Assembly (NCBI RefSeq): GCF_004363655.1
Contig: NZ_SNZH01000007.1
Span: forward strand, 248,001 to 312,000
Source: Tahibacter aquaticus
GTDB lineage: Bacteria > Pseudomonadota > Gammaproteobacteria > Xanthomonadales > Rhodanobacteraceae
DNA length: 64,000 nucleotides
Direction of reading: 5' to 3'
The notes beneath the pieces were generated by a model. That model was not told the origin of the DNA and did not search any database. It was given only the letters and a program-made list of their open reading frames with translations. Below are positions 25,360-42,217 of this stretch, one piece after another. How positions within the stretch are numbered: the first letter of the stretch is position 1; each line of letters starts with the position of its first letter. The position numbers and the translations under genes are program-made.

Positions 25360-25887
25360 CTAAAAGTAAGCCAGGAAATAGTTGATGCCGCTCCAGGTGA
25401 CTGCCGCCGATGCCTTGCAGTCCAGGCATTGGTCCCAGTACACCCTGGAAAAATGGTCCGGCACGCTGTGCAGCACGCTGAAGTGCCCTGGTTCGTCGCC
25501 GACTTCGGAAAAGACCGGTTGCCAGGCGCGGTCGTCGCGTAGCGTGAACACAGCAACGAAGCTGCCGCGTTTGCCCTGCTTGTCCTGATAGACGCCAACC
25601 AGCGCGCGATCGGGGCGCCCGTCGGCGTTGAAATCGCTGTTGACCACGAACTGGCGATTCCTGCTGGTCACATCGGCTCGCTGTGCCGCCGACAAGGCCG
25701 AACTCTCCAGCGCCGTCGCGCGTACCCATTCCCGGTTGACCCGGTCGACCGGAACGCCCAGCAATTCGGTGTCGCGCGGTTCCAGGGTGAACGTCTTCCA
25801 CCACGTGGCATCGGCAACAGCGCTGTCGCACAAGAGTGCCGTCACGGCGATCATGGCGAATCGGACGCGGCGCAGGCAATCACGCAC
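25360..25887 (-). CDS. Exported hypothetical protein with FG-GAP-like segment
   Basis: About 175 residues with a signal peptide (RRVRFAMIAVTALLCDSAVADA). Residues about 85-110 read FVVNSDFNADGRPDRALVGVY, an FG-GAP/EF-hand-like DxNxDGxxD calcium-loop motif, and the C-terminal part has two cysteines in DQCLDCKASA. The GTG at 25887 overlaps the kynureninase stop by eight bases and gives a basic n-region; ATG at 25854 is a shorter alternative. It sits inside the kynurenine operon between kynU and kmo, but nothing in the sequence ties it to the pathway. Function unknown. Confidence 0.7.
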   Translation of the reverse strand: MRDCLRRVRFAMIAVTALLCDSAVADATWWKTFTLEPRDTELLGVPVDRVNREWVRATALESSALSAAQRADVTSRNRQFVVNSDFNADGRPDRALVGVYQDKQGKRGSFVAVFTLRDDRAWQPVFSEVGDEPGHFSVLHSVPDHFSRVYWDQCLDCKASAAVTWSGINYFLAYF

Positions 25888-27163
25888 GCGCAAACGCCTT
25901 CATCGCTTCCACCAGTGTCCACGCATCGTCGAAACGGTTGTACAGCGCCGTCGGCGCGACGCGGATCACGTCGGGTTCGCGCCAGTCGCCGACGATACCC
26001 TGCTCGCTGAGGTGCTCGAACAGCGCACGGCCCGCATCGCGCGGGCCCTTGACGCGCAGGCTGAGCTGGCTGCCGCGGCGCTGCGGCTCGGCCGGCGTGA
26101 GGATGTCGATGAGCTGCGGTACTTCGCGCTGTATCGCCCAGGCCAGGTACGCCGTCAGCGCCAGCGATTTCTCGCGCAGGCGCCGGATGCCGGCGCGATG
26201 GAAGATTTCCAGCGAGACGCGCAGCGGCGCCAGCGCGAGGATCGGCGGATTCGACAGCTGCCAGCCGTCGGCGCCGGTCGTGGGCACGAACTGCGGACCC
26301 ATCTGGAAGCGCGTGGACTGGTCGTGTCCCCACCAGCCGGCAAAGCGCGGCAACTCGCTGCGCGCATGGCGCTCGTGCACAAAGCAGCCGGCGACGGCGC
26401 CGGGCCCGGAGTTGACGTATTTGTAATGGCACCAGACGGCGAAATCGCAGCCGCTGTCGTGCAGGTCTACCGGTACGTTGCCGACGGCATGGGCCAGGTC
26501 GAAGCCGACGATGCAGCCCTTGGCATGGGCCAGCGCCGTGATCGCCTTGAGGTCGAATATCTGGCCGGTCAGGTATTGCACGCCGGGCAGCAGCACCACG
26601 GCAATGCGCTCGCCGTGTTCGTCCAGCGCGCGGGCGATTGCGTCCAGCGAGATGACGCCGTTGGCTTCGTCGCCGTCGAGTTCGATCAGCGCGGTGGCCG
26701 GGTCATGGCCGTGGAAGCGTACCTGCGACTGCAGGGCATATTGATCGGACGGAAATGCGCGCTTTTCCAGCAGTATTGCATTGCGCGTCGTGGTCGGCCG
26801 GTAGAAGCTCACCAGCATCAGGTGCAGGTTCGCGCTGAGCGAATTCATCGCCACCACTTCGCCGGGCTGGGCACCGACCAGGCCCGCCAGGTTGTCGCGC
26901 ACGAAGCTGTGATACGGCATCCACGGATGGCGGCCGCGGAAATGCGCTTCCACTGCCAGCCGGCCCCAGTCGTCCAGTTCGTCCAGCAGCGCCTGGCGCG
27001 TTGCCTGGGGCTGCAGGCCGAGCGAATTGCCGCACAGGTAGACCTGGGCGTCATTGCCGTGCGGCGGAATGCAGAACTCGTCGCGGAAGGTCTTGAGCGG
27101 GTCGGCCTGGTCTTGCGTGCGGGCCCAGTCCAGGCCGGGCTGGAAATCCAACGAGTAGCTCAT
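25880..27163 (-). CDS. kynU: Kynureninase
   Basis: A 427-residue fold-type I PLP enzyme that cleaves 3-hydroxykynurenine to 3-hydroxyanthranilate and alanine. PLP lysine is K248 in CHYKYVNSGPGA, with the cofactor aspartate D222 in GFDLAHAVGN. YLCGNSLGLQP and the FPSDQYALQSQ block are typical of the family. ATG start at 27163, seven bases after the preceding exported protein gene, so it is in one operon. Length is normal. Confidence 0.96.
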   Translation of the reverse strand: MSYSLDFQPGLDWARTQDQADPLKTFRDEFCIPPHGNDAQVYLCGNSLGLQPQATRQALLDELDDWGRLAVEAHFRGRHPWMPYHSFVRDNLAGLVGAQPGEVVAMNSLSANLHLMLVSFYRPTTTRNAILLEKRAFPSDQYALQSQVRFHGHDPATALIELDGDEANGVISLDAIARALDEHGERIAVVLLPGVQYLTGQIFDLKAITALAHAKGCIVGFDLAHAVGNVPVDLHDSGCDFAVWCHYKYVNSGPGAVAGCFVHERHARSELPRFAGWWGHDQSTRFQMGPQFVPTTGADGWQLSNPPILALAPLRVSLEIFHRAGIRRLREKSLALTAYLAWAIQREVPQLIDILTPAEPQRRGSQLSLRVKGPRDAGRALFEHLSEQGIVGDWREPDVIRVAPTALYNRFDDAWTLVEAMKAFARA

Positions 27164-27170
27164 CGAGGGC

Positions 27171-27689
27171 TCACTTCCTCTGCAGTGACGCGGCGACCTG
27201 CTCGCAGCCGCGGTCGAACGCGGCGAGCCAGGCGGCGCTGGTGTTCTTCAGCACCGGATGCGCGCAGCGCAGCTGTACCCCGATGCCATTCTGGAAAAAA
27301 TAGCTTTCGCGATATTTATAGCGTGTCTTCGCATTCAGGCCGGAGTAGCGCAGGCTGCTGCTGCCGTCCGGGCCGTTTTCGCTTTCGTAGCCCGGTGTCT
27401 GGCGTGCCTTTTCCATGCTGGTGCTGACGAAGGCCTGGAACGCCTGCGCGTCGTCGAGCTTGCGCGTGGTGACGCTGACGCGGCTGGCCTCGTCGGTGCC
27501 GCTGTCGGCGGGGTCTTTGACCTGGAACGCGACGACCTGCGGGCTGCCTTCGGTCATCTGCATGATCACCGGCCAGTCGTCCGGCGCATTGAAGGTGACG
27601 ATACCGTCGTTGAGGCTGTAGTCCGCCGCCGCCACTGCGCTGGCGGCGCCGAACAGGGTCAGCAGGGCGAGAATCGGGCGAGCGAACAT
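27171..27689 (-). CDS. Exported hypothetical protein
   Basis: A 172-residue protein with a signal peptide (ARPILALLTLFGAASAVAAA). The mature part is a single beta-rich domain with VTFNAPDDWPVIMQM near its start and two cysteines (RCAHPVL and RGCEQVA) that could form a disulfide in the periplasm. The overall pattern resembles small PsbP/DUF1795-like lipid-free domains, but that is a guess. It is wedged between the decarboxylase (15 bases) and kynU (7 bases), so it is co-transcribed with kynurenine enzymes; its role is unknown. Confidence 0.7.
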   Translation of the reverse strand: MFARPILALLTLFGAASAVAAADYSLNDGIVTFNAPDDWPVIMQMTEGSPQVVAFQVKDPADSGTDEASRVSVTTRKLDDAQAFQAFVSTSMEKARQTPGYESENGPDGSSSLRYSGLNAKTRYKYRESYFFQNGIGVQLRCAHPVLKNTSAAWLAAFDRGCEQVAASLQRK

Positions 27690-27704
27690 GCAGCCTCCAG
27701 GGGT

Positions 27705-28712
27705 TCAGGAAAAACGCGAAGCGGACAGGCTCAGCCACTCCAGCGCGGTGCCGTGGTAGATGCGCGCCGCATCCGGCTCGGCCAGGTTCAGCGCGGCAAT
27801 GCCGCTGCCCGGCTGCTGTTCGCCCAGGGGAAAGGGATAGTCGGTGCCCAGCATCACGCGATCGATGCCGGCGACATCGACCAGGTAGCGCAGCGCCTGC
27901 GGATCGTGCACGCAGGAATCGAAGAACAGGCGGTCGAAATACTCGCGCGGGCTGCGCGCGTTGTCGGTTGCGACCAGATCCGGGCGCATGCGGAAGCCAT
28001 GCTCGATGCGGCCGATGGTATACGGGAACGAGCCGCCGCCATGGGCCAGGCAGACGCGCAGCTCGGGCAGCCGTTCCAGCACGCCGCCGAGGATCAGGCA
28101 GCAGGCCGCGCGCGATTGCTCCGCCGGCATGCCGACCAGCCAGGGCAGCCAGTATTTGGGCATGCTTTCGCGGCCCATCATGTCCCAGGGGTGGACCAGG
28201 ATCGCCGCGCCCAGGTCGGCCGCGGCCTCGAAGAACGGAAACAGTTCCGGTGCATCAAGATTCCAGTTTTCCACATGGGAACCGATCTGCACACCGCTCA
28301 GGCCGAGCTGCTCGACGCAGCGCTGCATTTCCTGGATGGCCAGGGTGGGCGACTGCAGCGGCACCGTGCCGATGCCGGCGTAGTGGCGCGGATAGTCGCG
28401 GCAGAGCTGGGCGGTGTGGTCGTTCAGGTGCCTATGCAGTTCCAGCGCCTGGTTGGCCTTGGCCCAGTAGGAGAACAGCACCGGCACGGTGGAAATCACC
28501 TGCACCTGCACACCGAACTTGGCGTAGTCGTCCACGCGCAGCTGCGGGTCCCAGGTGTTCGGCCAGATCTCGCGGAAGAACTTGCCGTCCTTGTAGATGC
28601 GATGGCGGTCATCGGTATGCACGATGACCGGGAAGCGGTCGTCGCCGTACTTCTCGGCCAGGTTGGGCCAGTCGCGCGGCAGGATATGGGCGTGGGTATC
28701 GATCTTCAGCAT
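27705..28712 (-). CDS. 2-amino-3-carboxymuconate-6-semialdehyde decarboxylase
   Basis: A 335-residue amidohydrolase-superfamily zinc decarboxylase (ACMSD/NbaD type) converting 2-amino-3-carboxymuconate semialdehyde to 2-aminomuconate semialdehyde. Metal ligands appear as H7 and H9 in DTHAHILP, H174 in ILVHPWDMMG, and D291 in LGTDYPFP; H224 in CLAHGGGSFPY is the general catalytic histidine. R47 and R235 fall where the family uses arginines for the substrate carboxylates. It follows the 3-hydroxyanthranilate dioxygenase by 52 bases. Its presence directs the pathway toward catabolism and away from quinolinate. The start is at MLKIDTHAH; upstream codons are proline-rich and unsupported. Confidence 0.93.
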   Translation of the reverse strand: MLKIDTHAHILPRDWPNLAEKYGDDRFPVIVHTDDRHRIYKDGKFFREIWPNTWDPQLRVDDYAKFGVQVQVISTVPVLFSYWAKANQALELHRHLNDHTAQLCRDYPRHYAGIGTVPLQSPTLAIQEMQRCVEQLGLSGVQIGSHVENWNLDAPELFPFFEAAADLGAAILVHPWDMMGRESMPKYWLPWLVGMPAEQSRAACCLILGGVLERLPELRVCLAHGGGSFPYTIGRIEHGFRMRPDLVATDNARSPREYFDRLFFDSCVHDPQALRYLVDVAGIDRVMLGTDYPFPLGEQQPGSGIAALNLAEPDAARIYHGTALEWLSLSASRFS

Positions 28713-28764
28713 GGTCGGCGAGTGTAAGCGACGGGGCGGTGGTGGTGGGGCGATGCCGGGCACA

Positions 28765-29286
28765 TCAGCCGTAGCGCGCCGGGGCCGGGTTCAGATGGCC
28801 GCAGCCCTTGCAGGTGCGCGCGGCCGGCGAGCCGTAGAAACGGTCGAACACCGGCGGGAAATCGGTCTCGACATTGGCCAGGGCAAAGAACTCTTCGTAC
28901 AGCTTGTTGTTGCAGCGCTCGCAGTACCACTGCAGGCCGTCCAGCTCGTGCTGCAGGCGCTTGCGCTCGACCACCAGCCCTATCGAATCCGGCCCGCGCT
29001 GCGGCGAATGCGGCACGCGCGGCGGCAGGTAGAACACCTCGCCGGCGCCGACGCGAATATCGCGCGGCTGGCCGTCTTCCTGGATGCGCAGCACCAGCTC
29101 GCCTTCGAGCTGGTAGAAGAACTCCGGGCCTTCGTCGATATGGTAGTCGGTGCGCTGGTTGGGCCCGCCCACCACCATCACGATGAAGTCGCCGTCGTAG
29201 ATGCACTTGTTCGCCACCGGCGGTTTGAGCAGGTGGCGGTTGTCCTCGATCCAGCGCTGGAAGTTCAGGGGCGGTGCTAGCGGCAT
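28765..29286 (-). CDS. 3-hydroxyanthranilate 3,4-dioxygenase
   Basis: A 173-residue cupin that opens the ring of 3-hydroxyanthranilate to 2-amino-3-carboxymuconate semialdehyde. Iron ligands are H49, E55 and H93 ([14 protein letters not shown] and PPRVPHSP). The C-terminal rubredoxin-like knot has YCERC (C122/C125) and [10 protein letters not shown] (C159/C162), typical of the bacterial enzyme (NbaC/HaaO). It is the first gene of the minus-strand kynurenine operon; 153 bases separate it from a divergent exported protein gene and should contain its promoter. Confidence 0.96.
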
Positions 29287-29439
29287 GGCGGCGTTCCGGG
29301 CCAGGTTGACGGCGCAGTGTAGCGGCTGCGCCGGCGTATTGCCGTGGCGTGGCTGCCTCGTCCTGCGCTGGACGGGCTTGCCGACGCGACGCATCATGCG
29401 CGCCTTTCCGCCCGGGGACGGGCTGCATCCGAGGCTGCC

Positions 29440-30099
29440 ATGTCACTGTCTTGCGTCCGCCTGCGCGCAGTGCAAATCCTGTTGTCGAGTGCCGCACTGC
29501 TGCCAGTGCCGCTGTGCGCGCAGGACTATGCCGTCTCGTCGGGCTGGTCCACCTTCTGGGGCGCCTTCGCCGATGAGCTTTTCGGCCAGCCCAGCGATGC
29601 CGCCCTGAAGGAGACCGCGCGCTTCGATCAGGCCGGTATCGCCTTCGACTATCCGGCCGTGCTGCGCGTCAACCTGGCCGAAGACGGCGACGGTTGGCGA
29701 ATCTGGCGCGGCGACGCGGAACTGGCGCTGTCGATAGAGCGCGACGCGGAAGAACAATCCCAGGCCGAACGCGAAGCCGACACCGTCGACTACCTGCAGC
29801 GCATGCAAGATATTTTCAACACACGCGATGCCAAGGTGGCGGCGCCGGCCAAAGCGGCGCAGGCGAATTGGTGTGGTAAGGACATCGCTGGCATCCGTAT
29901 GCGTACGCCTTTCGTCGGTGACGAGCACGAATTTCTCGTGTTCAAATTACCGCTGGGACGGGGCAAGGTAGCGACTCTGCAATTCGAAGACGTCATCGCC
30001 GACGGCAAGAATTCGCGCACCTTCGATGCGCTGTTGAGCAGCGTCAAGGCGACCTTGCGCTGCGGCAGCAAGGGTGCAGCAGACTCCTCCGGCGGATAG
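29440..30099 (+). CDS. Exported hypothetical protein
   Basis: A 219-residue protein with a signal peptide ([20 protein letters not shown]). The mature protein has [21 protein letters not shown] and [17 protein letters not shown], a pattern seen in PsbP-like domains, and a pair of cysteines (WCGKD and RCGSK). It is transcribed divergently from the kynurenine operon and 181 bases ahead of the RHS protein. There is no recognisable enzyme motif. It has some resemblance in length and layout to the exported protein at 27171-27689, not enough to claim homology. Confidence 0.7.
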
Positions 30100-30280
30100 C
30101 CCATCGGGCGGCGTGACCCTGTTCCGCGGCGTTTCGCGATAGTGGGTTGTTGGCACAGGACGGCAGGCCGTCGGCCCGCTCATGCGTGCAGCCGCAGTCC
30201 TGTGCTGGTTGTTCTCTCCCGCTGAATCTCCGGTCGTCAGCCGTGCTGCCGGCCTATCGTTGTACCGTCTAGGGGTTTGC

Positions 30281-33200
30281 ATGAAACGATGGATTGCCGG
30301 CGTCGCCCTGATGGCCGCGCTGGGTATGGCTGCACCGGCGCTGGCGCGCTGCGACCTGACGGGTGCCGAATCGACCGTCTACGGTTACCAGGTAGGCACC
30401 CAGGGCAACTGCACCACGCTGGAAGAAGCGGAAGCGCTGCTGCGCAGCGGCAGTGGCGGCCTGCCGGCGGTGCAACTGGCTTTCATCATTCCGTACGATT
30501 TCGACAACGGGCCCAGTTCGCGCGCCCTGCTCGACTACCGGCCCTACGGGGCACTGAAGCCCGGCGCCAGCGCGCTGACGGGGGCGCCGGTTTCCACCAC
30601 TTCGTTCTTTCGTACGTATGCCAAGAACTGGCCGCCAGCGCCGGGCAGCTGCCCGCTGGCGGGGTGCGACAGTACCGGTTGCGCCACGCCCGAGCTGGAA
30701 CGCCAGCGTCTGCAATGCCAGATCGCGGCAACCTGGTCGCAGGACCCGCGCTATTGCTGGAACCTGTCCGGCAACGTGAGCAGCAGTGGCGCCGTCACGC
30801 GCTTCTCCCGCGCCAACGGCGCAGGCAATGAATCCGGATCGCTGCTCTTTGCACCGAGCAGCAGCACGGCCAACGATTCGGGTGCGACGCTGTCGGCGAC
30901 CTTGCAGACCTGTGTCGCCGGGCGCGATGCGGAAACCCCGGCGGCCACGCAATCCTTCAGCTGGGGCATGGCGCGCCAGGACACTATCTCCTGCGGCGCC
31001 GGCTCGACCGTCAACGGCGCGGCAACCTCGGCCGGCGATGCGTGCAGCACGCGGTTCGAAAAAGCCATCGTCAACGGCCCGAAATTCACCCAGGCGCCGA
31101 ACCAGTGCAGTGCGGGCAATCCCTGCTATCCGGGCAACGGCAACAAGACGGCCGATGTGAAGGTATTCGACTACGGCCGCATTGCGCTGAGCCTGCACTA
31201 CGGCTCGCTGCGCCAGTTGCGCAATTTCGGCTATATCGACCAGAACTGGTCGCACAGCTTTGCCAAGCGCATCCTGACCGAATGGGGCGCGCCCGGACAT
31301 TTCGGCACCAATCCGGAAAACGCGCCGATCGAGAACGTCGCTACTGTTTTCGTGCAGGACGAGATGCCGGCGCTGGAAGTGTACCGCCGCGACGGTGTAC
31401 TGCCGGCCGGCCAGTTCCGCGCCACCAGCAGCCTGGGCCGCACCGTGCGCTACTTCGGCCAGGACGGCGCAACCGCGCCGCGCTACGAGCTGACCTATAC
31501 CGACGGCCAGGTGGAAATCTACGATCGTGCCGGCCGCCTGCTCGAAATGCGCCGTGCCGGCAGCCCTGCCGGCAACCTCGTGCTGACTTACCGCGGTCGC
31601 GCCATCACCCAGAGCCACCAGACGGAAACCGCGCATCTGGAAGAAGCGTTCTGGCGCATCGACCGCATCACCGACGGCAGCGGCCGTTATGTCACCTTCC
31701 ACTACGGCAGCGGCCGTCTGATGCCGCTCGCGCGCATCGTCGCCGACGACGGTATTACCGAGCTGGCGCGTTTCGACCATGACCCGAGCGGCCGCCTGAG
31801 CGCGCTCGTGCGTTTCGGCGAAAGCCAGCAGTTTCTCTACAACGAGCCGGCCTATCTCGACGTGGCCGCCGGCGTGCGCGGCGCCTGGCTCACCGGCGTG
31901 ATCGACGAAGAACAGCGCCGCTACGCCACTTATGCCTACGACGACTGGGGCCGGGCCAAGGCCAGCTGGCATGGACTGGATGCCGGCAAAGTCGAGATCG
32001 TCTATCCCACCGTGACGCCGGGCGGCACCGCGCAGGACGACAGCCGTGCCATCGTGCGCACGCCGGCCTACGGCGAAGTGGAATACCGCTTCCATCCGAC
32101 CGAGCCGTACCGGCAGCTGTCCAGCGTGGTCGATATGGCCGGCACGGTCAGCTATGAATTCCAGCCCAGCGGGCACCGCGTCAAGGCGCGCATCGACCGG
32201 CGCGGCATACGTACCGAATTCGACTACAACCCGGCCAACAGCCACCAGGTGGCGCGGGTAGAGGCCAAGGGCACGCCGGACCAGCGCCGCACCGAATTCG
32301 ACTGGGACTACAGCACCGGGCGCATGACCGGCGAACGCCTTTACGCCGAGCCGAGCAACGGGCCGCGCAAGCTTCTGCTCGACCGGCGCTTCCGCTATGT
32401 GCCGGGCACCGCACTGCTGGCGGGTACCGACCGGGTCGATCCGCTGGACGGCCGCAGCCGCAGCACGTCGTATACCTATTGCACGAGTACAGATGTAGTC
32501 AATCCGGCCACAGGCTGCGCCTTGACGGGCCAGCTCAAGAGCTTCGACGGCCCGCGTACCGATGTTGCCGATACCGTCAGCTACGCCTACTACACCGTTG
32601 ACGCACTGGGTGGTTGCGGCAGCCTGGCAGGCCCCTGCCAGCGCAAGGGCGACCTGCGCCGCATCACCAACGCGCTGGGCCAGAGCAGCGAGATCGTGAC
32701 TTACGACCGCGCCGGACGGCCGCTGCGCGTGCGCGACGAGAACGGCACCCTGACCGACTACAGCTACCACGCCCGCGGCTGGCTGCTCACGCGCACCGTG
32801 CGTGCCACTGCCAGCGGCGTACCCAGCGCCACCGATGCGACGACTACGCTGGAATACGATCGCAGCGGCAATGTCACACGGCAGATCGCACCCGACAACG
32901 CCGGCACGCTGAGCTACAGCTACGATGACGCGCAGCGCCTGGTGCGCATCGGCGACGCGCTGGGCAATGCCCTCACCTACGATCTGGACCGCTCCGGCAA
33001 CCGCCGCAGCGAACGCCGCTCCGGCCCTGACGGCATCGATACCCACAGCCTGTACCGCAACTACAACCAGCTGAACCAGCTGGTGTTCGAACTCGATGCG
33101 TTCAGCCGGCCGCTGTACCACATGAATCTGAACGACACGCCGGCAGGCGTGATGGACGGGCACGACGCCAACGGCAATCCGCGCCGCCTGATCGACGGCC

Positions 33201-35488
33201 GCGCGGTGCTGCTCGACATGCAGTACGACGCGCTCAATCGCCTGGTCAAGACCTTGCAGGACTACCAGGGCAGCGGGCCGACAGCCAACGCGGAAACACG
33301 TTACGGCTACGACGCCGAAGACCGCCTGACCAGCGTCACCGATGCCGACGGCGTACCTACCGGCTACCACCACAACGGGCTCGGCGATCTGCGCCAGGTT
33401 GTCAGCCGCGACAGTGGCACCAGCACGTATACCTACGATCTTGCCGGCAACAAAATCACCGAAACCGATGCGCGCGGCACTACGGCGACGCATGTCTACG
33501 ATGCGCTGAATCGCGTTACGGACACTTTCTACCCCGATCTGTCGCGCCACGTGCGCCGCGACTACGACCTGGCCGACAGCGCCAGCGGCTGCGTCGACTC
33601 CTATTCCACCGGGCGTCTGAGCCGCATTACCGACCGCAGCGGCAGTACCACGTATTGCCATGACCGGCGCGGCAATGTGGTGCGCAAGATCCGCCTCAAA
33701 CCGGGCCAGACCCTGCTCAGCGGCGATATGCGCCAGGTTCACTACGCCTACGACAAGAGCAACCTGCTGCGCCAGATCGTCTATCCGCATGGATCGGTGG
33801 TCAGTTACGCGCGCAATGCCAACGGCCAGGCGACCGGCCTTTCCTGGCAGCCCTATGCCGGCGGCCCGGTCAGCCAGCTGGTGCTGAATGCGCAGTACTA
33901 CCCGTTCGGCCCGCTGCACGCGCTGACCTTCGGCAATACCTTGCAACTGGTGAAGAACTACGACGCCAACTACATGATCGACAGCATCGAAAGCACGCAG
34001 CCTGGCGGACTGGTGCTGGACCTGCAGACCGACGTGCTGGGCAATGTCATGGCGATAGCGCCGAGCATCGACGGCCCGCCGCTGCGGCGCTACAGCTACG
34101 ACCCGCTCAATCGCCTGACCGAGATGCGCGACGGCAGCAATGTCATGCTGGAGCAGTTCGGCTATACAGCGGTGGGCGACCGCCTGAGCAAGCGCATCGG
34201 CGCCCAGTCGCCGCAGAACTATTCCTATCAGCCGGGCACGCACCGCCTGGCCAGCAGCGGCAGCGTCGGCCGCAGCTACGATGCCAACGGCAACACCACG
34301 GGCGGACTGGATTTCTCCAGCTATCCACTCGTTTACGACGACGCCAATCGCCTGAGCCAGGTCACGGCGCCGGGGCAGGGGGCCAGCGTTGGCGTGAACT
34401 ACGACTACGACGGCCTGGGCCAGCGGGTGAGCAAGGCCCGCGGCGATGAACTGGTCGACACCTTCTACGACGAATCGGGCTCGCGCCTGGTGGACGAAGT
34501 GTGGAGCGTGGACTGCAGCGGCAGTGTTTCGCGCAAAACCGCCGGGACCGGGCACGTTGCCAGCGCAATCGGCTGCCCCGGCGGCGGCACGGCCATCGTG
34601 GCGGCGAAATCGCGCACCGAATACCTCTACCTGGACGGCCTGCCGGTAGTGCTGGCGCGCTACAGCGGCAGCAATCCGACAGTGCAGCTGAGCTACCTGC
34701 ATACCGATCACCTGGGCACACCGCGCGTGGCGATCAACGTCGGTAGCGGCGCGCAGCAGTGGCGCTGGGATCTGCAGAACACCGCCTTCGGCGACCACGC
34801 GCCGGTGGCACTGGAAAGCGGCTACGAATTGAATATGCGCTATCCGGGCCAGTTCTACGACAAGGAGTCGGGGCTGTATCACAACTACTTCCGCGACTAT
34901 GAGCCGAAGACGGGGCGGTATATCGAGAGTGATCCGATTGGGTTGGCTGGGGGACTTGCCACCTATTCCTATGTCAGCGGAAATCCGCTGTCACTGTTCG
35001 ACTTCCTGGGTCTTATCGAAGGAAGTCAGGGAAATCTCGATCGCCGTCGTAGAATTGACGAAATCGCGAAGAGCTATGAGGGCAGTCCATTGTGGGCAAA
35101 GAATGTCCGCAAAGGCGACCATCCGCCCGGTAGCAATAAATGCAATTTGTTTGTAAATGATGTGTTGGCCGAAGCCGATGCTCCGATGGTTGTGCGAACC
35201 AAGGAAGGAAACACTAGACGGCCTACAGCCGGGGAAATGGCTAATACTGGGGCGCCCATTCCCAATTGGCGTGTCCTAAAGCCGAGTGAATTGCCAGGGC
35301 CTGGAGATGTGGCTGCGTTCCGCTTGGACGATGGCCTTTCTACGGTAGGGGCAACCGGGCACACCGGCATTATCACATCATGTGAATGTGACGCCGGTAT
35401 ATCGAATCAAAGCGCTCACGAGTTCAATGTAGGACCTGTGCCTGGCCAGTTTAACAACAAAACCTTCCGCCGCTACACTGGTGATTAA
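30281..35488 (+). CDS. Sec-exported RHS/YD-repeat protein with C-terminal cysteine peptidase/amidase-like toxin
   Basis: A 1735-residue polymorphic toxin-like protein. The start at 30281 has a good AGGGG site and a clear signal peptide (GVALMAALGMAAPALA), so export is probably by Sec instead of a PAAR-linked type VI route. NPCYPGNGNK (about 281-290) resembles the DUF6531 motif; dozens of YD repeats follow (YDRAGR, YDLDRSGN, YDALNR). The RHS core is YLHTDHLGTPR (about 1471) to YEPKTGRYIESDPIGL (ending near 1555). Beyond it, residues about 1580-1735 form a distinct domain with SNKCNLFVNDVL (C1621) and ATGHTGIITS (H1694), matching the Cys-His arrangement of NlpC/P60- or Tae-like peptidoglycan hydrolases. 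G+C falls sharply in this tip, a sign that the toxin cassette was acquired separately. Confidence 0.9.
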   Translation: MKRWIAGVALMAALGMAAPALARCDLTGAESTVYGYQVGTQGNCTTLEEAEALLRSGSGGLPAVQLAFIIPYDFDNGPSSRALLDYRPYGALKPGASALTGAPVSTTSFFRTYAKNWPPAPGSCPLAGCDSTGCATPELERQRLQCQIAATWSQDPRYCWNLSGNVSSSGAVTRFSRANGAGNESGSLLFAPSSSTANDSGATLSATLQTCVAGRDAETPAATQSFSWGMARQDTISCGAGSTVNGAATSAGDACSTRFEKAIVNGPKFTQAPNQCSAGNPCYPGNGNKTADVKVFDYGRIALSLHYGSLRQLRNFGYIDQNWSHSFAKRILTEWGAPGHFGTNPENAPIENVATVFVQDEMPALEVYRRDGVLPAGQFRATSSLGRTVRYFGQDGATAPRYELTYTDGQVEIYDRAGRLLEMRRAGSPAGNLVLTYRGRAITQSHQTETAHLEEAFWRIDRITDGSGRYVTFHYGSGRLMPLARIVADDGITELARFDHDPSGRLSALVRFGESQQFLYNEPAYLDVAAGVRGAWLTGVIDEEQRRYATYAYDDWGRAKASWHGLDAGKVEIVYPTVTPGGTAQDDSRAIVRTPAYGEVEYRFHPTEPYRQLSSVVDMAGTVSYEFQPSGHRVKARIDRRGIRTEFDYNPANSHQVARVEAKGTPDQRRTEFDWDYSTGRMTGERLYAEPSNGPRKLLLDRRFRYVPGTALLAGTDRVDPLDGRSRSTSYTYCTSTDVVNPATGCALTGQLKSFDGPRTDVADTVSYAYYTVDALGGCGSLAGPCQRKGDLRRITNALGQSSEIVTYDRAGRPLRVRDENGTLTDYSYHARGWLLTRTVRATASGVPSATDATTTLEYDRSGNVTRQIAPDNAGTLSYSYDDAQRLVRIGDALGNALTYDLDRSGNRRSERRSGPDGIDTHSLYRNYNQLNQLVFELDAFSRPLYHMNLNDTPAGVMDGHDANGNPRRLIDGRAVLLDMQYDALNRLVKTLQDYQGSGPTANAETRYGYDAEDRLTSVTDADGVPTGYHHNGLGDLRQVVSRDSGTSTYTYDLAGNKITETDARGTTATHVYDALNRVTDTFYPDLSRHVRRDYDLADSASGCVDSYSTGRLSRITDRSGSTTYCHDRRGNVVRKIRLKPGQTLLSGDMRQVHYAYDKSNLLRQIVYPHGSVVSYARNANGQATGLSWQPYAGGPVSQLVLNAQYYPFGPLHALTFGNTLQLVKNYDANYMIDSIESTQPGGLVLDLQTDVLGNVMAIAPSIDGPPLRRYSYDPLNRLTEMRDGSNVMLEQFGYTAVGDRLSKRIGAQSPQNYSYQPGTHRLASSGSVGRSYDANGNTTGGLDFSSYPLVYDDANRLSQVTAPGQGASVGVNYDYDGLGQRVSKARGDELVDTFYDESGSRLVDEVWSVDCSGSVSRKTAGTGHVASAIGCPGGGTAIVAAKSRTEYLYLDGLPVVLARYSGSNPTVQLSYLHTDHLGTPRVAINVGSGAQQWRWDLQNTAFGDHAPVALESGYELNMRYPGQFYDKESGLYHNYFRDYEPKTGRYIESDPIGLAGGLATYSYVSGNPLSLFDFLGLIEGSQGNLDRRRRIDEIAKSYEGSPLWAKNVRKGDHPPGSNKCNLFVNDVLAEADAPMVVRTKEGNTRRPTAGEMANTGAPIPNWRVLKPSELPGPGDVAAFRLDDGLSTVGATGHTGIITSCECDAGISNQSAHEFNVGPVPGQFNNKTFRRYTGD

Positions 35489-35489
35489 T

Positions 35490-35876
35490 ATGGCTATGAG
35501 AGGAATGCATAAAAAAGCAATCGTCTTTCTGGTTGTTGCGGTAGCTGTGTCACCGCCCGTTTTTTCGCAGAAATTCGACGCATCTATTTTCATTCTCGGC
35601 GAGAAAAATGGCTCCGGCGTCTACACTTTCCGCGGAAAAAAAATGCCGCTTCCGGATATCTATACTGAGATGGAAGGCAAGTTCAACCAGGCGAGCATGA
35701 TGGAGCCTTTTGGTGTTATTTTCGATGAAAGTGTGACTTTCAAAAAGATAATAAATGTAAAAGGAATGCTTGAAAAGAAGGGTTTTACGAATATAAAATA
35801 TTTTTCATTTGCCGAAGGGGGGCGTTACATGATGAGTGTTTCCCTGGGTGGCGTGGTTCCTGTTCCTGTTCCCTAG
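35490..35876 (+). CDS. Small exported protein, likely immunity protein for the RHS toxin
   Basis: A 128-residue protein beginning one base after the RHS stop codon. It has a signal peptide (HKKAIVFLVVAVAVSPPVFSQ), so it would sit in the periplasm, where a peptidoglycan-cleaving toxin would act on the producer. The mature part is a small mixed alpha/beta domain (IFILGEKNGSGVYTFRGKK ... FTNIKYFSFAEGGRYMM) without known motifs. Bases 35701-35820 are about 32% G+C, far below the surroundings. The immunity role is inferred from position, size and export; I do not recognise the family. ATG codons at 35496 and 35505 are alternative starts. Confidence 0.65.
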   Translation: MAMRGMHKKAIVFLVVAVAVSPPVFSQKFDASIFILGEKNGSGVYTFRGKKMPLPDIYTEMEGKFNQASMMEPFGVIFDESVTFKKIINVKGMLEKKGFTNIKYFSFAEGGRYMMSVSLGGVVPVPVP

Positions 35877-35904
35877 CGACAGAGTCATTTATTCTTGGTT
35901 TTTG

Positions 35905-35920
35905 GTTTGATTGGTCAAAC
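35905..35920. repeat. Inverted repeat GTTTGA-TTGG-TCAAAC
   Basis: A perfect 6-base inverted repeat with a 4-base loop in the short A+T-rich gap between the presumed immunity gene and the next exported protein gene. It could be an operator or a weak terminator; no T-run follows it. Confidence 0.35.
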
Positions 35921-35983
35921 TGTTGAGCGTCTGTTGCTCGGGATATCTTCGTGTGTTGCCGATTCTGTTATGCAAAAGGTGCT

Positions 35984-37420
35984 ATGAAGCCAATAATTCT
36001 TGCTATTGCGTTGGCGGGCGTGTTCGCCTCTGCCGGTGCTAATGCACAAAATGGCAGCGAAGAAACCCCCGAGTCCATGGCCGAACGGCTGGTCGACGGC
36101 AACGCGCGTCCGGTGGCCAATGTGAGTACGCCGGCCGGTACGGTCTATTTTCGCTATCACTTCTTCGGCAATGGCTATACCTGGCACCCGACCAACGTCA
36201 TTTCCGACCCGGACAACAACCGCAATGGCCGTACCATCGATGCCTCGTCGCCGGTGATACTGGAAACGCGCGGCTTGGCTGTGACCGGTGCAGCGGGTTC
36301 CAGTACGCAATATGTGGAATTCGAGCATTGCATTCTGGCGGGGCCGAATCCGCTTTGCGCTTCGCCGCAGCGTTTTCGGTTCCGTGTCGATCCTGCGGTA
36401 ACCGCAACGCCGGCCAGCGCGATCACGGTCGACGGTTCCTACCCGCGCGAGATTCAGCTGGTCACTGAAATCCCGCTGTCCGGTGCGCGCATCGATGCCA
36501 CATGTACCAGCACCAGCGGGCCGACGGTTCCGGCGGTGATCAGCGTGACACCGGCCTGGGCCAATACCGACAGCCAGGGCAAGACCGCGTTTACGATCAC
36601 GGCGTCCAAGCTGCGGCTGATTGCTTCCAGTGGCCCGGCGCCGTCGGGCAAATGTACGTTCCAGCCGACCGGTGGCAGCAAGTTGTTGGACGTGACCGTG
36701 CAGGGCGAGCGGATTGCGCCGTCGCTGCAGATAACACCGTCTTTGGTGAGCGTGGCTGCTGCGCCGGCGGAGGCGATCGATCAGGTCGTGACGGTGAAGA
36801 CGGCGTCGCCGGTTGCGGCCAACGTCAAGATCCGCGCCAGCTGTTCCAACGAGGGAACGCCGGCGACAGTGCGCCTGGATGGCGGTACCACGCCGGCGGC
36901 CAGTGTCGTTGCCGAAAAGATGAGCGATGCAGCAGGACAAGTCAGCTTCCGCGTGATCGCCGAGAAACTGGTCAGCATCACCGATACGCCACGTATCCGC
37001 TGCAATTTCAACGTCGACGGCCTGTCGCCCGTCTATCAGTACACGGCGGCAGGAAAGCGGATCAATCCGTCCTTCTCGCTCAACCCGGCACAGATTACCC
37101 AGTCCGGATCTACCGGCGTCACGGTTACGATGAATCCGTCTTATGCAGGGTTCGTCATCGTTCCGAGCTGTACCCAGCAGAACACCACGCTATCGGCAAC
37201 GCCATCGACGACGCAGACCAACGCGTCCGGCCAGCAGCTGTTCAATATCGCCGTGAATCCGCTGGTGATCACCAACCCGGACACATCGGTAGTTCCGGCG
37301 GCGAGCTGCCGCTTCGGCATCAGCACATTCCTGTCGCCGACGCTGCAGTTCCGTACGGGTAATGCCTGTGCAATGGCGCTGTCGCCGTTGCCGGCGCAGT
37401 GTGGGGCACCGGCCACTTGA
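35984..37420 (+). CDS. Exported protein with repeated beta-sandwich-like segments
   Basis: A 478-residue protein with a signal peptide (ILAIALAGVFASAGANAQ). An N-terminal part (about 55-135) has YFRYHFFGNGYTWHPTNVI and two cysteines; the rest looks like three similar Ig-like segments, each with paired cysteines and a DSQGKTAFTITASKL- or DAAGQVSFRVIAEKL-type block, which recalls Big_1-like bacterial Ig repeats. Each segment pairs ...CTSTSG/SCSNEG/SCTQQN with a later CTFQP/CNFNV/CRFGI. It ends in a cysteine-containing tail (LPAQCGAPAT). Codon composition is back to the high-GC norm. Likely surface or secreted; function unknown. Confidence 0.75.
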   Translation: MKPIILAIALAGVFASAGANAQNGSEETPESMAERLVDGNARPVANVSTPAGTVYFRYHFFGNGYTWHPTNVISDPDNNRNGRTIDASSPVILETRGLAVTGAAGSSTQYVEFEHCILAGPNPLCASPQRFRFRVDPAVTATPASAITVDGSYPREIQLVTEIPLSGARIDATCTSTSGPTVPAVISVTPAWANTDSQGKTAFTITASKLRLIASSGPAPSGKCTFQPTGGSKLLDVTVQGERIAPSLQITPSLVSVAAAPAEAIDQVVTVKTASPVAANVKIRASCSNEGTPATVRLDGGTTPAASVVAEKMSDAAGQVSFRVIAEKLVSITDTPRIRCNFNVDGLSPVYQYTAAGKRINPSFSLNPAQITQSGSTGVTVTMNPSYAGFVIVPSCTQQNTTLSATPSTTQTNASGQQLFNIAVNPLVITNPDTSVVPAASCRFGISTFLSPTLQFRTGNACAMALSPLPAQCGAPAT

Positions 37421-37468: not shown

Positions 37469-37897
37469 TCAGGCGAAGTTGCCATCCAGCGCCGCCACAC
37501 ACTTCAGCTCGATCGCAATCGGCGTCGGCAATGCCGTGATGCCCAGCGTGGTGCGGCAGGGCTGCGCCGTGGTGAAGTGTTCGGCGTAGAGACGGTTGTA
37601 GGCGGGGAAATCGCGGGCCATGTCGGTGAGGTAGACGGTGACATCGACGAGGTCTTCCCAGCGCGCGCCGGAGGCTTCCAGTACGGCGCGCACGTTGGCG
37701 AATACCTGGCGGCATTGCGCTTCGATGTCGTAGCTGAGCAGGCGTTTTTCCGCGTCGTATACATTGCCGGGAATTGCATTGCTGCCGGGTGTGCGCGGGC
37801 CTACGCCGGACAGGAACAGCAGGTTGCCGACGCGGCGTGCGTGCGGATAGGCGCCGACGGGGGCGGGTGCGTTGCTGGCGTGGATGGTATCGCTCAC
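37469..37897 (-). CDS. 2-aminomuconate deaminase (RidA family)
   Basis: A 142-residue RidA/YjgF-fold protein. The central residues PRTPGSNAIPG, SYDIEAQCRQVFANVRAVLE and PCRTTLGITALPTPIAIELK (R115 being the family arginine) match the 2-aminomuconate deaminase branch (NbaF/AmnD), which has the same length, more than generic RidA. It would hydrolyse 2-aminomuconate to 4-oxalocrotonate with release of ammonia, the step after the dehydrogenase at 40102-41556. GTG start at 37897 overlaps the upstream gene stop by four bases. A general enamine deaminase role remains possible. Confidence 0.82.
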   Translation of the reverse strand: MSDTIHASNAPAPVGAYPHARRVGNLLFLSGVGPRTPGSNAIPGNVYDAEKRLLSYDIEAQCRQVFANVRAVLEASGARWEDLVDVTVYLTDMARDFPAYNRLYAEHFTTAQPCRTTLGITALPTPIAIELKCVAALDGNFA

Positions 37898-39228
37898 GGA
37901 TTGCGGTCTCGGTTGCCGACGGTGATGTTCTGCGTGGTCACGACCTGATTGTCCGCGTTGGTGGCGCGCAGGCGGTACTTGCCCGGGCGCAGATACAGGT
38001 CGGTACGCAGCTGGTCGATGGTACGGAATTTCTGTTCGGTGTTGGACAGGCTGTTGTCGCGCAGGCCGATGACGATGCGGTCGGCCGGAATGGCGTCGTC
38101 GCCGTCGCCCTGGTAGCGGGCTTCGAGCAGGCAGGGCATGCTGTTGCGGCAGATTTCGCCGTCGACGCTGTAAGGCACGCGCGCGCCGTCGAGGCTTAGC
38201 CAGCTCTCGCGGCCGTTCTCGCGCGTGAATGGCGGCAGCACGACGCTGAGGTCGTACTGGTCGGGGCGCAGGGTCCACGGCTTGCCGTCCGCGGCGACGA
38301 ACACGCCGGGCTGTTTCGGCGGCGACTTGGCCAGCAGCGCGCGGTAGTAGGCGTGGTCCTGGCCGAGCTGGGTATGCGGTATCAGCATGGTCTGCTCGAT
38401 GGTGAGCGGATCGATCCGCGTCATCTTGCGGAAATGCTGCGCCATGCTGGCGCCGCCGAGGTATTTGCCCGATTCGACGATATGCGCATAGCCGGCGTTG
38501 ACGACCAGCCGCGCGTCGGCATTGTCCTTGAACACGCGCTGGTACAGGTTGCGCGCCTGTTCGCGTTCGCGCGCATCGCCGGTGGCGTCCGAGGCAGCCT
38601 CGTAGGGCACGACGATGAAGCCAAGCTTGAGCGCGGTGCGGACCATTTCCGCATAGACCGGCTCTTGCGTGTAGAAGCCGCTATCGTCGTTGGCATAGCC
38701 GCGCTGGGCCAGCTTGTGGTCGGTTTCGTAAAGGGTTTCCGCGGCGAAATGGGTAAAGCCCAGTGCTTTCAGTCGAGGCAGCATTTCCACCGTGAGCGAG
38801 CGGGTGATCGCCGCGTTGTGCGCTTCGTTGAAAAACACAGCGCGCTGGCCCTGAGCCAGGCGCGCAATCACATCGACGGCGGGCTGCAGCTGCCAGTCGC
38901 CTTCCAGCGGAGAGGGCGCGTCCTGCTTGTCGCTGATCTGCTGGATGGAGAACGACTGCAATGCGTCTTCGTGCAGGCCGAGGTAGCTTTGATGCCAGCT
39001 CAGATACTGGCCGAAGATCAGGCGGAAGGCCTTGGATTCGTCCGCCGCATAGGCTGCGCGCATGATCTGGTACTGCGCCAGCAGACCGCGCACTTTTTCC
39101 GTCTGGCGCAAAATGGATTCGGATTTTTCCGCCGCGGCTATCTGCTGTTCCTTCCAACTGGCTGCGGATAACGGCGCGGCGGCGCACAGCAGGACGGACG
39201 AGAGCAGGACTATCAAGCGCTGGTGCAT
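37894..39228 (-). CDS. Exported protein with ChaN/TraB-like fold pattern
   Basis: A 444-residue protein with a signal peptide (RLIVLLSSVLLCAAAPLSA). The block RAVFFNEAHNAAITRSLTVE (about 130-149), followed by LKALGFTHFAAETLYETD and later HIVESGK, resembles the conserved histidine/glutamate motifs of the ChaN/EreA/TraB-Tiki hydrolase fold. A C-terminal beta-rich domain (about 345-444) has cysteines in GEICRNSMPCLLEARY. It overlaps the deaminase start by four bases, so it is in the same transcript, but nothing links it chemically to kynurenine breakdown. The family call is tentative. Confidence 0.6.
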   Translation of the reverse strand: MHQRLIVLLSSVLLCAAAPLSAASWKEQQIAAAEKSESILRQTEKVRGLLAQYQIMRAAYAADESKAFRLIFGQYLSWHQSYLGLHEDALQSFSIQQISDKQDAPSPLEGDWQLQPAVDVIARLAQGQRAVFFNEAHNAAITRSLTVEMLPRLKALGFTHFAAETLYETDHKLAQRGYANDDSGFYTQEPVYAEMVRTALKLGFIVVPYEAASDATGDAREREQARNLYQRVFKDNADARLVVNAGYAHIVESGKYLGGASMAQHFRKMTRIDPLTIEQTMLIPHTQLGQDHAYYRALLAKSPPKQPGVFVAADGKPWTLRPDQYDLSVVLPPFTRENGRESWLSLDGARVPYSVDGEICRNSMPCLLEARYQGDGDDAIPADRIVIGLRDNSLSNTEQKFRTIDQLRTDLYLRPGKYRLRATNADNQVVTTQNITVGNRDRNP

Positions 39229-39363
39229 GGGATGGCCTCCGGTGTGCGCGCAGCATAAGTCAGGCCGGAAAGCGCCGGTTTTGCAGCGCGTGTGCGTTGC
39301 CGCCATTGTGGCCTTGTGCGGGCGAACGCGCAGTCACGGTCACAACGGCGCGGCAGCCACGGC

Positions 39364-40017
39364 TCAGTCGCGCTGGGCCAGGCGCGCCAGGGCGGCGGCA
39401 TAGACCGAGGGCAGCTGGTCGCGCGCACCGACGGTCATGCCCAGGTCGGTGATGCGGCCGTCGAACAGGCTGTAGATCCAGCCATGTACGCTGAGGTTCT
39501 GCTCGCGTGCCCAGGCGTCTTCGACAATGGTGGTCTGGCAGACATTGAAAACCTGCTCGATCACGTTCAGTTCGCACAGGCGCGCATGGCGCAAGGCGTC
39601 GAGTTCCAGCTTGTCCAGCATTGCCGCATGTTTCTGTGCCACGTCGCCGACATGGCGCAGCCAGTTGTCGGCCAGGCCTACGCGCACGCCGGTCAGGCTG
39701 GCATGTACGCCGCTGCAGCCGTAGTGGCCGACCACCATGATGTGTTCGACCTTGAGCAGGTCGACAGCGAACTGGATGGTGCTGAGGCAGTTCAGATCGG
39801 TGTGTACGACGACGTTGGCCACGTTGCGGTGGACGAATACTTCGCCGGGTTGCATGTCGGTGATCTGGTTGGCCGGCACGCGGCTGTCGGAACAGCCTAT
39901 CCAGAGGTATTTAGGCGCCTGCTGGTTGGACAGGCGCTTGAAGAAGGCTGGATCCTGGGCGCGCATGGATTCGGCCCAGGCTTTGTTGCGCTTGAGCAGG
40001 TCGGACAGGTCGTTCAT
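39364..40017 (-). CDS. can: Beta-class carbonic anhydrase
   Basis: A 217-residue beta-carbonic anhydrase interconverting CO2 and bicarbonate. Zinc ligands are C42 and D44/R46 of GCSDSRVPAN, H98 and C101 in VGHYGCSG. Length and motifs match the E. coli Can type, cytoplasmic and oligomeric. It sits between the ChaN-like gene and the semialdehyde dehydrogenase in the same orientation. In Pseudomonas-like aminophenol and 3-hydroxyanthranilate clusters, decarboxylations release CO2, but that link is speculation. ATG at 40017; the open frame extends 14 codons further. Confidence 0.95.
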   Translation of the reverse strand: MNDLSDLLKRNKAWAESMRAQDPAFFKRLSNQQAPKYLWIGCSDSRVPANQITDMQPGEVFVHRNVANVVVHTDLNCLSTIQFAVDLLKVEHIMVVGHYGCSGVHASLTGVRVGLADNWLRHVGDVAQKHAAMLDKLELDALRHARLCELNVIEQVFNVCQTTIVEDAWAREQNLSVHGWIYSLFDGRITDLGMTVGARDQLPSVYAAALARLAQRD

Positions 40018-40101
40018 GGGCGGCTTTTTCCTGGAAAAAGTGCGCAAGCATAGCCGCAACGCTGCGGCACGTTGAAATGACGCGCGGTGGCGGTGCTCGG
40101 T

Positions 40102-41556
40102 TCAGCCCAGGGCGATGCAGACGTTCTTGGCCTCGGTGAAGAAGCGCAGCGCTTCCACGCCGCCTTCGCGGCCGACGCCGGACTGTTTGACGCCGCCGAA
40201 TGGCGTGCGCAGGTCGCGCAGCATCCAGCAGTTCACCCAGACAATGCCGCTGTGAAGGCTGGCGGCGATGCGGTGGGCGCGGTTGAGGTCGCGCGTCCAG
40301 ACCGAGGCGGCCAGGCCATAGGACGTGTCGTTGGCCAGCTCCAGCGCGTGCGCATCGTTGTCGAAGGCTTGCAGCGTGACTACCGGGCCGAAGATCTCTT
40401 CCTGGTTGGTGCGGCAGTGCGGGCCAAGGTTGTCGATCACGGTAGGCGCTATGAACCAGCCCTGGGCGCAGCGGCCGTCCACGCGCACTGCCTCGCCGCC
40501 GGCGAGCACCTGGCCGCCTTCGTTGCGGGCCAGCTCGATGCAGCTCATCACCTTGTCGAAATGCGCCTGCGAAACGACGGCGCCGAGATCGCTGCCGGGC
40601 AGTTGCGGGTCGCCGACACGCAGGGCGCGGGCACGCGCGACGAAGCGGTCGCGGAATTCGGCATAGATGCGCCGTTCGACCAGGATGCGCGAGCCGCACA
40701 GGCAGATCTGCCCCTGGTTGGCAAAAGCTGAGCGCACGATGGTGTCGAGCTGACTTTCGCTGCCCTCCCAGTCGGCGAATACCAGGGTGGCGTTCTTGCC
40801 GCCGAGTTCCAGCGAGGTCTTCTTGAACCGGGCGGCAGCGCTCTGGGCGATATGCGCACCGACCCGGGTGGAGCCGGTGAAGGAGATGGCCTTGATCGCC
40901 GGATGATCGATCAGAGACTGGCCAGTGTAGTGGCCGCTGCCCTGCAGAATATTCAACACGCCGGCGGGAAAGCCGGCGTCGATGGCTGCCTGCGCCAGCA
41001 TGTGCGCGGTCAGCGGCGTGACTTCGGACGGCTTGGCCAGCACGCAGTTGCCGGCTGCGAGGGCTGGCGCGATCTTCCAGGTGAACAGGTACAGCGGCAG
41101 GTTCCACGGGCTGATGCAGGCGACCGTGCCCAGCGGCTGGCGCAAGGTGTAGTTGAGCGCGCGGTCTTCCATCGCATGCGCTTCGCTGCTCCATTGGGTT
41201 ATGGCTGCCGCGAAGAAGCGCAGATTGCTGATTGCACGGGGTATGTCCACGCTGCGCGCCAGCTGCAGCGGCTTGCCGCTGTCGCGCGACTCGGCCAGGG
41301 CGAATTCTTCCTGGTGCTGTTCGATCTGCTCGGCCAGGCGTTCCAGCAGGCGTGCCCGCTCGGCCGCGGGTGTGCGCGACCAGGCCGGAAACGCACGTTC
41401 GGCCGCGACAGCGGCCTCGGCGACGTCGGCCGCATCGGAATCGGGGCATTGCGCATAGCGCTGACCGGTAGCGGGCTCGAACACGTCGAGGTAGCGGCCG
41501 TTGACGGGTGGCTGCAGGCGTCCGTCGATGAGGTTGGCGAGAGTGTGGATGCTCAT
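40102..41556 (-). CDS. 2-aminomuconate-6-semialdehyde dehydrogenase
   Basis: A 484-residue NAD-dependent aldehyde dehydrogenase. Catalytic C285 lies in NQGQICLCGSR, the general base is E250 in SLELGG, and N152 is in SPWNLP. The NQGxxCLC segment, SGIVWVNCWMLRDL and PFGGVKQSGVGREGG resemble human ALDH8A1 and bacterial NbaE, the enzymes oxidising 2-aminomuconate semialdehyde to 2-aminomuconate. That fits the ACMSD and deaminase genes in the same region. It could also act on hydroxymuconic semialdehyde; the cluster context favours the amino form. The start is at MSIHTLANLI; the upstream extension overlaps nothing but lacks support. Confidence 0.87.
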   Translation of the reverse strand: MSIHTLANLIDGRLQPPVNGRYLDVFEPATGQRYAQCPDSDAADVAEAAVAAERAFPAWSRTPAAERARLLERLAEQIEQHQEEFALAESRDSGKPLQLARSVDIPRAISNLRFFAAAITQWSSEAHAMEDRALNYTLRQPLGTVACISPWNLPLYLFTWKIAPALAAGNCVLAKPSEVTPLTAHMLAQAAIDAGFPAGVLNILQGSGHYTGQSLIDHPAIKAISFTGSTRVGAHIAQSAAARFKKTSLELGGKNATLVFADWEGSESQLDTIVRSAFANQGQICLCGSRILVERRIYAEFRDRFVARARALRVGDPQLPGSDLGAVVSQAHFDKVMSCIELARNEGGQVLAGGEAVRVDGRCAQGWFIAPTVIDNLGPHCRTNQEEIFGPVVTLQAFDNDAHALELANDTSYGLAASVWTRDLNRAHRIAASLHSGIVWVNCWMLRDLRTPFGGVKQSGVGREGGVEALRFFTEAKNVCIALG

Positions 41557-41602
41557 GCCTCGAAGCGTAGCCTGCAGGCGTGCGCCGCGCCATGCAGCAG
41601 GG

Positions 41603-42217
41603 TCAGGGCGGCGGCGTGCCGCGCGGCTTGCGTTCGGCCCGCACGATGGCGATGGAGCGGGCCATTTCCCGGCTGGCGATTTCGCGTGAGCGCTGCAGCG
41701 CAATGGCGTACAGGCGGTGCAGTTCGTCCGGGTCGGTCTGGCGCGAACGGCCGCTGGCGGCGCGCCAGAGCAGCAGTGGGTTGGCGAAGGACCACAGGGT
41801 TGCGGTCAGTACCAGCAGCGCGGTGTAGGCCAGGCCGTCGTTATGCCAGTCGCTGCTCGGCGGTGGCGGCTGCAGCCAGAACACAACCGTAAGCGCGATG
41901 AATTGCAGCAAAGCCAGCACGGCGATGGCCTGGCCCAGCTCGCACAGATGATCGGGCGTTGCCGACAGGGCGCGCAGCAGCCAGGCGGCAGCGGCGCCGA
42001 CTGCCAGGGTAGCCAGCAGCGGCAGCAGGCCGAGTATCCAGGTGTAGACACCGACCGGTCCTTGGCTGAACCAGCCGCTGAAACCGTCGGCCAGGCTGAA
42101 ATACTGTGCCGCCTGGCTGAAGGTGCTGACCAGGCGCCGGCTGTCCAGGGCAATGAGCAGGGTCTGCGCGGTCACGATGGCGCTCAGCACGGCGTTCTGG
42201 ACGATACGGGCTCGCAC
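41603..42217 (-). CDS. Integral membrane protein of unknown function
   Basis: A 204-residue protein with four predicted membrane segments (about 8-24, 60-82, 92-114, 128-150) and a basic cytoplasmic C-terminus rich in arginine (SREIASREMARSIAIVRAERK). It starts at GTG 42217; no ATG is available near the expected N-terminus. It lies 46 bases upstream of the dehydrogenase gene. I do not recognise the family. A 206-base gap without features separates it from the SDR gene. Confidence 0.65.
   Translation of the reverse strand: MRARIVQNAVLSAIVTAQTLLIALDSRRLVSTFSQAAQYFSLADGFSGWFSQGPVGVYTWILGLLPLLATLAVGAAAAWLLRALSATPDHLCELGQAIAVLALLQFIALTVVFWLQPPPPSSDWHNDGLAYTALLVLTATLWSFANPLLLWRAASGRSRQTDPDELHRLYAIALQRSREIASREMARSIAIVRAERKPRGTPPP

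Follow-up and report, generated by a model that had tools for sequence, protein, structure and literature searches.

The window analyzed here, a 64,000-nucleotide stretch of the 7.27 Mb Tahibacter aquaticus genome, contains an RHS gene (ORF 30281-35488) which encodes a protein of 1735 residues and is followed by a short second gene (Table 1). The first residues of the RHS protein read MKRWIAGVALMAALGMAAPALA, and the signal peptide that the initial annotation had assigned to this carrier was evident as a signal-peptide-like N-terminal sequence. The RHS block (29344-37420, plus strand) is flanked on both sides by minus-strand genes of kynurenine and 3-hydroxyanthranilate metabolism, encoding kynureninase, an amidohydrolase and 3-hydroxyanthranilate dioxygenase at 25883-29397 and a RidA-like protein and an aldehyde dehydrogenase at 37472-41703. 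Considering the window alone, the arrangement looks like an insertion of the block into a cluster of catabolic genes. An exported protein of 489 residues without a Pfam match is encoded directly downstream of the cassette (35951-37420, plus strand) and probably lies outside the exchanged piece, since the G+C content is back to normal there.

Table 1. Positions of the carrier, the tip and the partner gene in the window
Feature	Position	Strand	Description
RHS carrier	30281..35014	+	signal peptide (residues 1 to about 23), N-terminal region, RHS/YD repeats, RHS-associated core to residue 1578
Putative toxin tip	35015..35485	+	residues 1579-1735 (157 residues), predicted CHAP/NlpC-P60-like cysteine amidase domain
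C1621 codon	35141-35143	+	within KCNLFVNDVL
H1694 codon	35360-35362	+	within GHTGI
GGTGA, possible Shine-Dalgarno site for the partner	35480..35484	+	within the last codons of the toxin gene; 5 bases separate it from the ATG
Partner gene	35490..35876	+	128 aa, signal peptide, predicted immunity protein

The body of the carrier matched the Pfam RHS repeats (PF05593, E=3.3e-38) and the RHS-associated core (TIGR03696, 71.9 bits against a cut-off of 32.5). The core match ends at residue 1578, past the sequence DFLGL, which moves the border from the position near residue 1555 that had been given to it earlier. Two motifs of the DPxGL type lie close to this end, DPIGL and, 18 residues on, DFLGL, the second of which has no proline. 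Rhs1 of Photorhabdus laumondii is cleaved behind a pair of DPLGL motifs, and the aspartate of the second is required for this (PMC8636562). By analogy, the carrier is predicted to cleave itself after L1578, with the reservation that its second motif departs from DPxGL. Taken as a whole, the locus is most likely an interbacterial polymorphic toxin of the RHS type.

Further RHS carriers from the genus possess cores that are 34-66% identical to the core in the window and are followed by different tips. Most of these tips are poorer in G+C than their own cores, and at least two exhibit HExxH-like or HExxH metallopeptidase-like motifs (L079 and L085). When eight carrier ORFs of the genus were read automatically, a clear signal-peptide candidate was present in five (L100, L101, L103, L106 and L109), with L097 starting inside the core and L105 and L107 being beyond the judgement of the simple rule applied. 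None of the eight contained a PAAR-like motif. Similarly, the RHS protein in the window had no Pfam match to PAAR and VgrG was absent from the ten neighboring ORFs scanned, as the initial annotation had stated for the vicinity of the gene. A type VI secretion system (T6SS) is present in the genome and is not linked to the RHS locus, its TssB match and two PAAR matches being located on other contigs. A T6SS PAAR-RHS effector was ruled out on the grounds that the protein has no PAAR domain. The suspicion that the export route may be unusual found no support, because RHS toxins exported by Sec have been described as a class (PMC3482391) and several other carriers of the genus have signal peptides. 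The same genome also encodes an RHS protein with a different NlpC/P60-like tip (DCSGSTWQIYKEAG...GDVGWWDGHMLIY; L003, G000:C15:105898-109671, 1501-2715), behind which a protein with a signal-peptide-like N-terminus is encoded; L003-L005 form a run of three RHS genes.

The base composition changes exactly at the border between core and tip, with GC3 values of 0.83 for the carrier, 0.50 for the tip and 0.47 for the partner gene. The count of 38 G/C in the 120 bases from 35701 to 35820 reported previously is exact. Across the 64 kb, windows of 120 bases as poor in G+C as this one start only between 35685 and 35718, and the lowest of them (35 G/C, start 35697) falls within the partner gene. Away from the cassette, no window sized as the partner gene or as tip plus partner was as poor in G+C. 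Tip and partner are compositionally foreign to their surroundings.

The domain behind the core is distinct from it and contains the two motifs on which the initial annotation was built, KCNLFVNDVL and GHTGI, with cysteine at residue 1621 and histidine at residue 1694. In an alignment of the full domain with 12 relatives both residues were invariant (12/12), and the conserved core consisted of K/L-C-N/H-x-F, G-D and the histidine late in the first sheet. In an alignment of six sequences, K1620, F1624, G1675 and D1676 were invariant together with C1621 and H1694. No single residue following the histidine that could serve as a third catalytic residue was conserved among the 13 aligned sequences. 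The Pfam CHAP profile (PF05257, cut-off 26) scored the tip at 18.4 bits (E=0.0032), below the cut-off, while two relatives were above it (L011, 30.3 bits; L035, 30.6 bits), L029 was at 26.0 and most of the remaining relatives approached it from below. Secondary profile matches across the family were to Amidase_5, Amidase_6 and AmiA-like domains. By sequence, the tip had chance matches only in the PDB, and searches of PADLOC and PHROGs gave no match.

Structure prediction had been put forward in the initial annotation as a check on the tip. The AlphaFold model obtained from the six-sequence alignment (pLDDT 77.6, pTM 0.79) places the cysteine (Cys38 in the numbering of the model) at the opening of the main helix (37-48) and the histidine (His111) in a strand (110-116) of the sheet that follows. 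In a Foldseek search of the PDB, ranks 1-8 were occupied by the CHAP domains of LysK and LysGH15, the N-acetylmuramoyl-L-alanine amidase BACUNI_02947 and Tse1/Tae1, with E-values from 0.012 to 0.18 and TM-scores of about 0.5, which is agreement in kind without a strong single match; none of the PDB matches reached an E-value of 0.001. The named matches in a viral library included many lysozymes, endolysins and CHAP proteins, none of them below an E-value of 0.001. The model points to the CHAP/NlpC-P60 fold class at moderate confidence. Together with the profile matches and the invariant cysteine and histidine, these structural matches support the NlpC/P60- or Tae-like class proposed from the motifs.

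A papain-like cysteine enzyme could also leave peptidoglycan untouched and attack a protein or a lipid ester in the periplasm or at the cell surface. The NlpC/P60 fold holds lipid- and protein-cutting enzymes as well, among them the lipid-acting toxins Tox-Act1 and TseH (PMC12994826). However, these lipid-acting relatives are circularly permuted, with the histidine before the cysteine, whereas the tip has the canonical order of cysteine before histidine, and its nearest structures and profiles are those of peptidoglycan hydrolases. We consider a different target improbable; judging from its motifs and its model, the tip most likely acts on peptidoglycan as an amidase or endopeptidase of the canonical papain-like type.

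Relatives of the tip were found well beyond the genus. A direct search in the family returned two clear relatives (36-39% identity) and one weaker one, the other matches being to the RHS core only, and profile searches added relatives in other families and in another class. A scan of the collection gave ten loci, among them the Tahibacter soli locus that the other searches had returned and one that appears to be L023 again. No relatives of the tip were detected in plasmids (protein search) or viral contigs, and plasmid DNA matches spanned the RHS core only. The domain occurs on different carriers in different phyla: behind RHS cores (L010, L011, L014, L023, L024 and L034), on non-RHS carriers with IPT/TIG-like repeats (L036 and L037), a repeat-rich stalk (L028) or a membrane anchor (L032), and free-standing in L029 and L030. 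The latter two, from Singulisphaera (Planctomycetes), have no exported neighbor and possibly serve a non-toxin use. A further relative on a short non-RHS protein (L027, 1417-2532, minus strand) retains GHVGI and has arginine at the position of the cysteine (SPKRNLWVHD), for which reason it was excluded from the active set; this form may be inactive, or the arginine may be due to a sequencing error, and a protein of 232 residues with a hydrophobic N-terminus comes next. In L023 and L034, extra RHS tip modules adjoin the toxin gene, and every one of those in L034 is paired with a small exported protein of its own.

The second gene of the cassette encodes the exported protein of 128 residues that the initial annotation had described one base past the toxin stop, as borne out by the ORF coordinates (stop 35486-35488, ATG at 35490) and the signal peptide. 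The one-base gap and the GGTGA inside the toxin gene suggest that its translation is coupled to that of the toxin. No relatives of the partner were found among 234 genomes of the family, an even sample of 369 genomes of the class, plasmids or viral contigs, and it had no match in Pfam. The AlphaFold prediction, for which the alignment held no relatives, gave no usable model (pLDDT 45), and a fold search with it would be meaningless. An ExbD/TolR-like identity, suggested by eye (VIFDESVTFKKIINVKGMLEKKGFTNIKYF), was rejected, as the HMM score of 2.0 bits lay below the shuffled maximum of 3.8 and several of 60 shuffles exceeded its hhalign score of 16.8. Likewise, the NCBIfam match to CopK (E 0.077) was far below the cut-off and was discarded.

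The neighbors of the related tips follow a common pattern. In all 12 toxin-like loci, including the one in the window, the first gene downstream in the same orientation codes for an exported or membrane protein. Among the other RHS tips in the family, 13 of the 22 compared have such a neighbor (Fisher p=0.009), a comparison that is moderate evidence, given that signal peptides, lipoboxes and transmembrane segments were called by a hydrophobicity rule with a similar rule for the controls, ambiguous controls were omitted and part of the sorting was done by eye. By inspection, the partners are mostly unrelated to one another and comprise multi-pass membrane proteins (L014, L023, L024 and L034), proteins with a single anchor (L011, L032, L035 and L037) and a secreted protein (L028). 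In Tahibacter soli (L010/L033) the partner combines ankyrin repeats with a lipoprotein-type signal (LSIVVAC), which is unusual for a candidate periplasmic immunity protein.

The absence of relatives or a known family for the partner in the window, and its dissimilarity to the partners of related tips, would also fit an unrelated small exported gene that is carried along, or an accessory for RHS export. Unrelated partners are nevertheless what one would expect if every tip variant were matched by a separate inhibitor, and the one-base gap, the Shine-Dalgarno-like site within the toxin gene, the lowest G+C content of the window and the exported or membrane protein found in this position in all relatives with toxin-like context argue against such roles, which we regard as unlikely. 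Based on its position, coupling, composition and export and on the pattern among the relatives, the partner is probably the immunity protein for the tip.

We favor, as the likely reading of the entire cassette, a Sec-exported RHS weapon with a peptidoglycan-cutting tip against which the partner provides periplasmic immunity. Sec would take the carrier across the inner membrane, and a further step would display or release it. The RHS shell would enclose the tip until the built-in aspartyl protease, with D1574 of the second motif, cleaves the chain behind L1578. Once free, the 17-kDa tip would enter the periplasm of a neighboring bacterium and hydrolyze amide bonds of the peptidoglycan, with C1621 as the nucleophile and H1694 as the base, leading to lysis, and the co-translated partner, likewise exported by Sec, would bind and block the tip in the periplasm of the producer. 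That the RHS protein is an ordinary wall-remodelling protein or surface adhesin of its producer would fit Sec export and the free-standing relatives (L029, L030; Singulisphaera) without an adjoining exported partner, but is very unlikely in view of the composition break exactly at the core/tip border, the swapping of tips among the carriers of the genus, the linked exported partner and the displaced tip modules beside the relatives in L023 and L034.

Beyond the single locus, the kind of weapon is known, and the tip clade and its partners appear to be unnamed. It is conceivable, if somewhat doubtful, that they represent a distinct and widespread clade of peptidoglycan-cutting toxins in which one catalytic domain is kept while the immunity proteins, exported or membrane-bound, are numerous and unrelated, and which employs an undescribed RHS delivery route of Sec plus an outer-membrane step. 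A clade of this kind would extend over Gammaproteobacteria, Delftia, Rugamonas, bins of Acidobacteria and Nitrospirales and a myxobacterial bin, and its candidate immunity proteins would include the ankyrin lipoprotein, the multi-pass membrane proteins and the unclassified partner in the window. The locus adds a recognizable group of presumed wall-cutting tips with a clear Cys-His signature and mostly unrelated candidate immunity proteins, which would give names and tests to genes that are presently unannotated.

Among characterized proteins, the CHAP domains of LysK and LysGH15 are the best structural matches of the tip (E 0.012-0.017, weak) and belong to the Pfam family common to some of its relatives, but endolysins are phage lysis enzymes and not RHS tips. 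By fold and logic, Tse1/Tsi1 comes nearest among the studied pairs, the resemblance of the modelled tip to Tae/Tse1 being one of fold only. As with Tse1/Tae1-Tsi1 of Pseudomonas aeruginosa (PMC3391265), the window is predicted to encode a toxin that hydrolyzes peptidoglycan through a cysteine and is countered by an immunity protein in the periplasm. In contrast, Tse1 is a free T6SS effector, whereas the domain described here is the RHS tip of a Sec-exported protein, with 14% identity in the structural match, and the partner resembles nothing known. Tox-NLPC/P60 domains on RHS carriers were described in 2012, with no immunity family listed (PMC3482391); they share with the present system a papain-like Cys/His tip on an RHS carrier that is predicted to degrade the wall of the target. 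Those domains have C, H and D residues, occur in Bacteroidetes and delta-proteobacteria and use T6SS, PVC or Tc routes (PMC3482391), whereas the system in the window is gammaproteobacterial and Sec-exported, has a linked partner and exhibits no conserved Asp after the His. There is also a parallel in architecture with WapA and other Sec-exported RHS toxins, which likewise combine a signal peptide, an RHS body, a variable C-terminal toxin and a linked immunity gene, for which there is a candidate here. WapA, however, is Gram-positive (PMC12704120), while a Gram-negative cell also needs an outer-membrane step. The locus offers a clean case for how Gram-negative bacteria surface Sec-exported RHS proteins and deliver them into a neighbor without T6SS parts.
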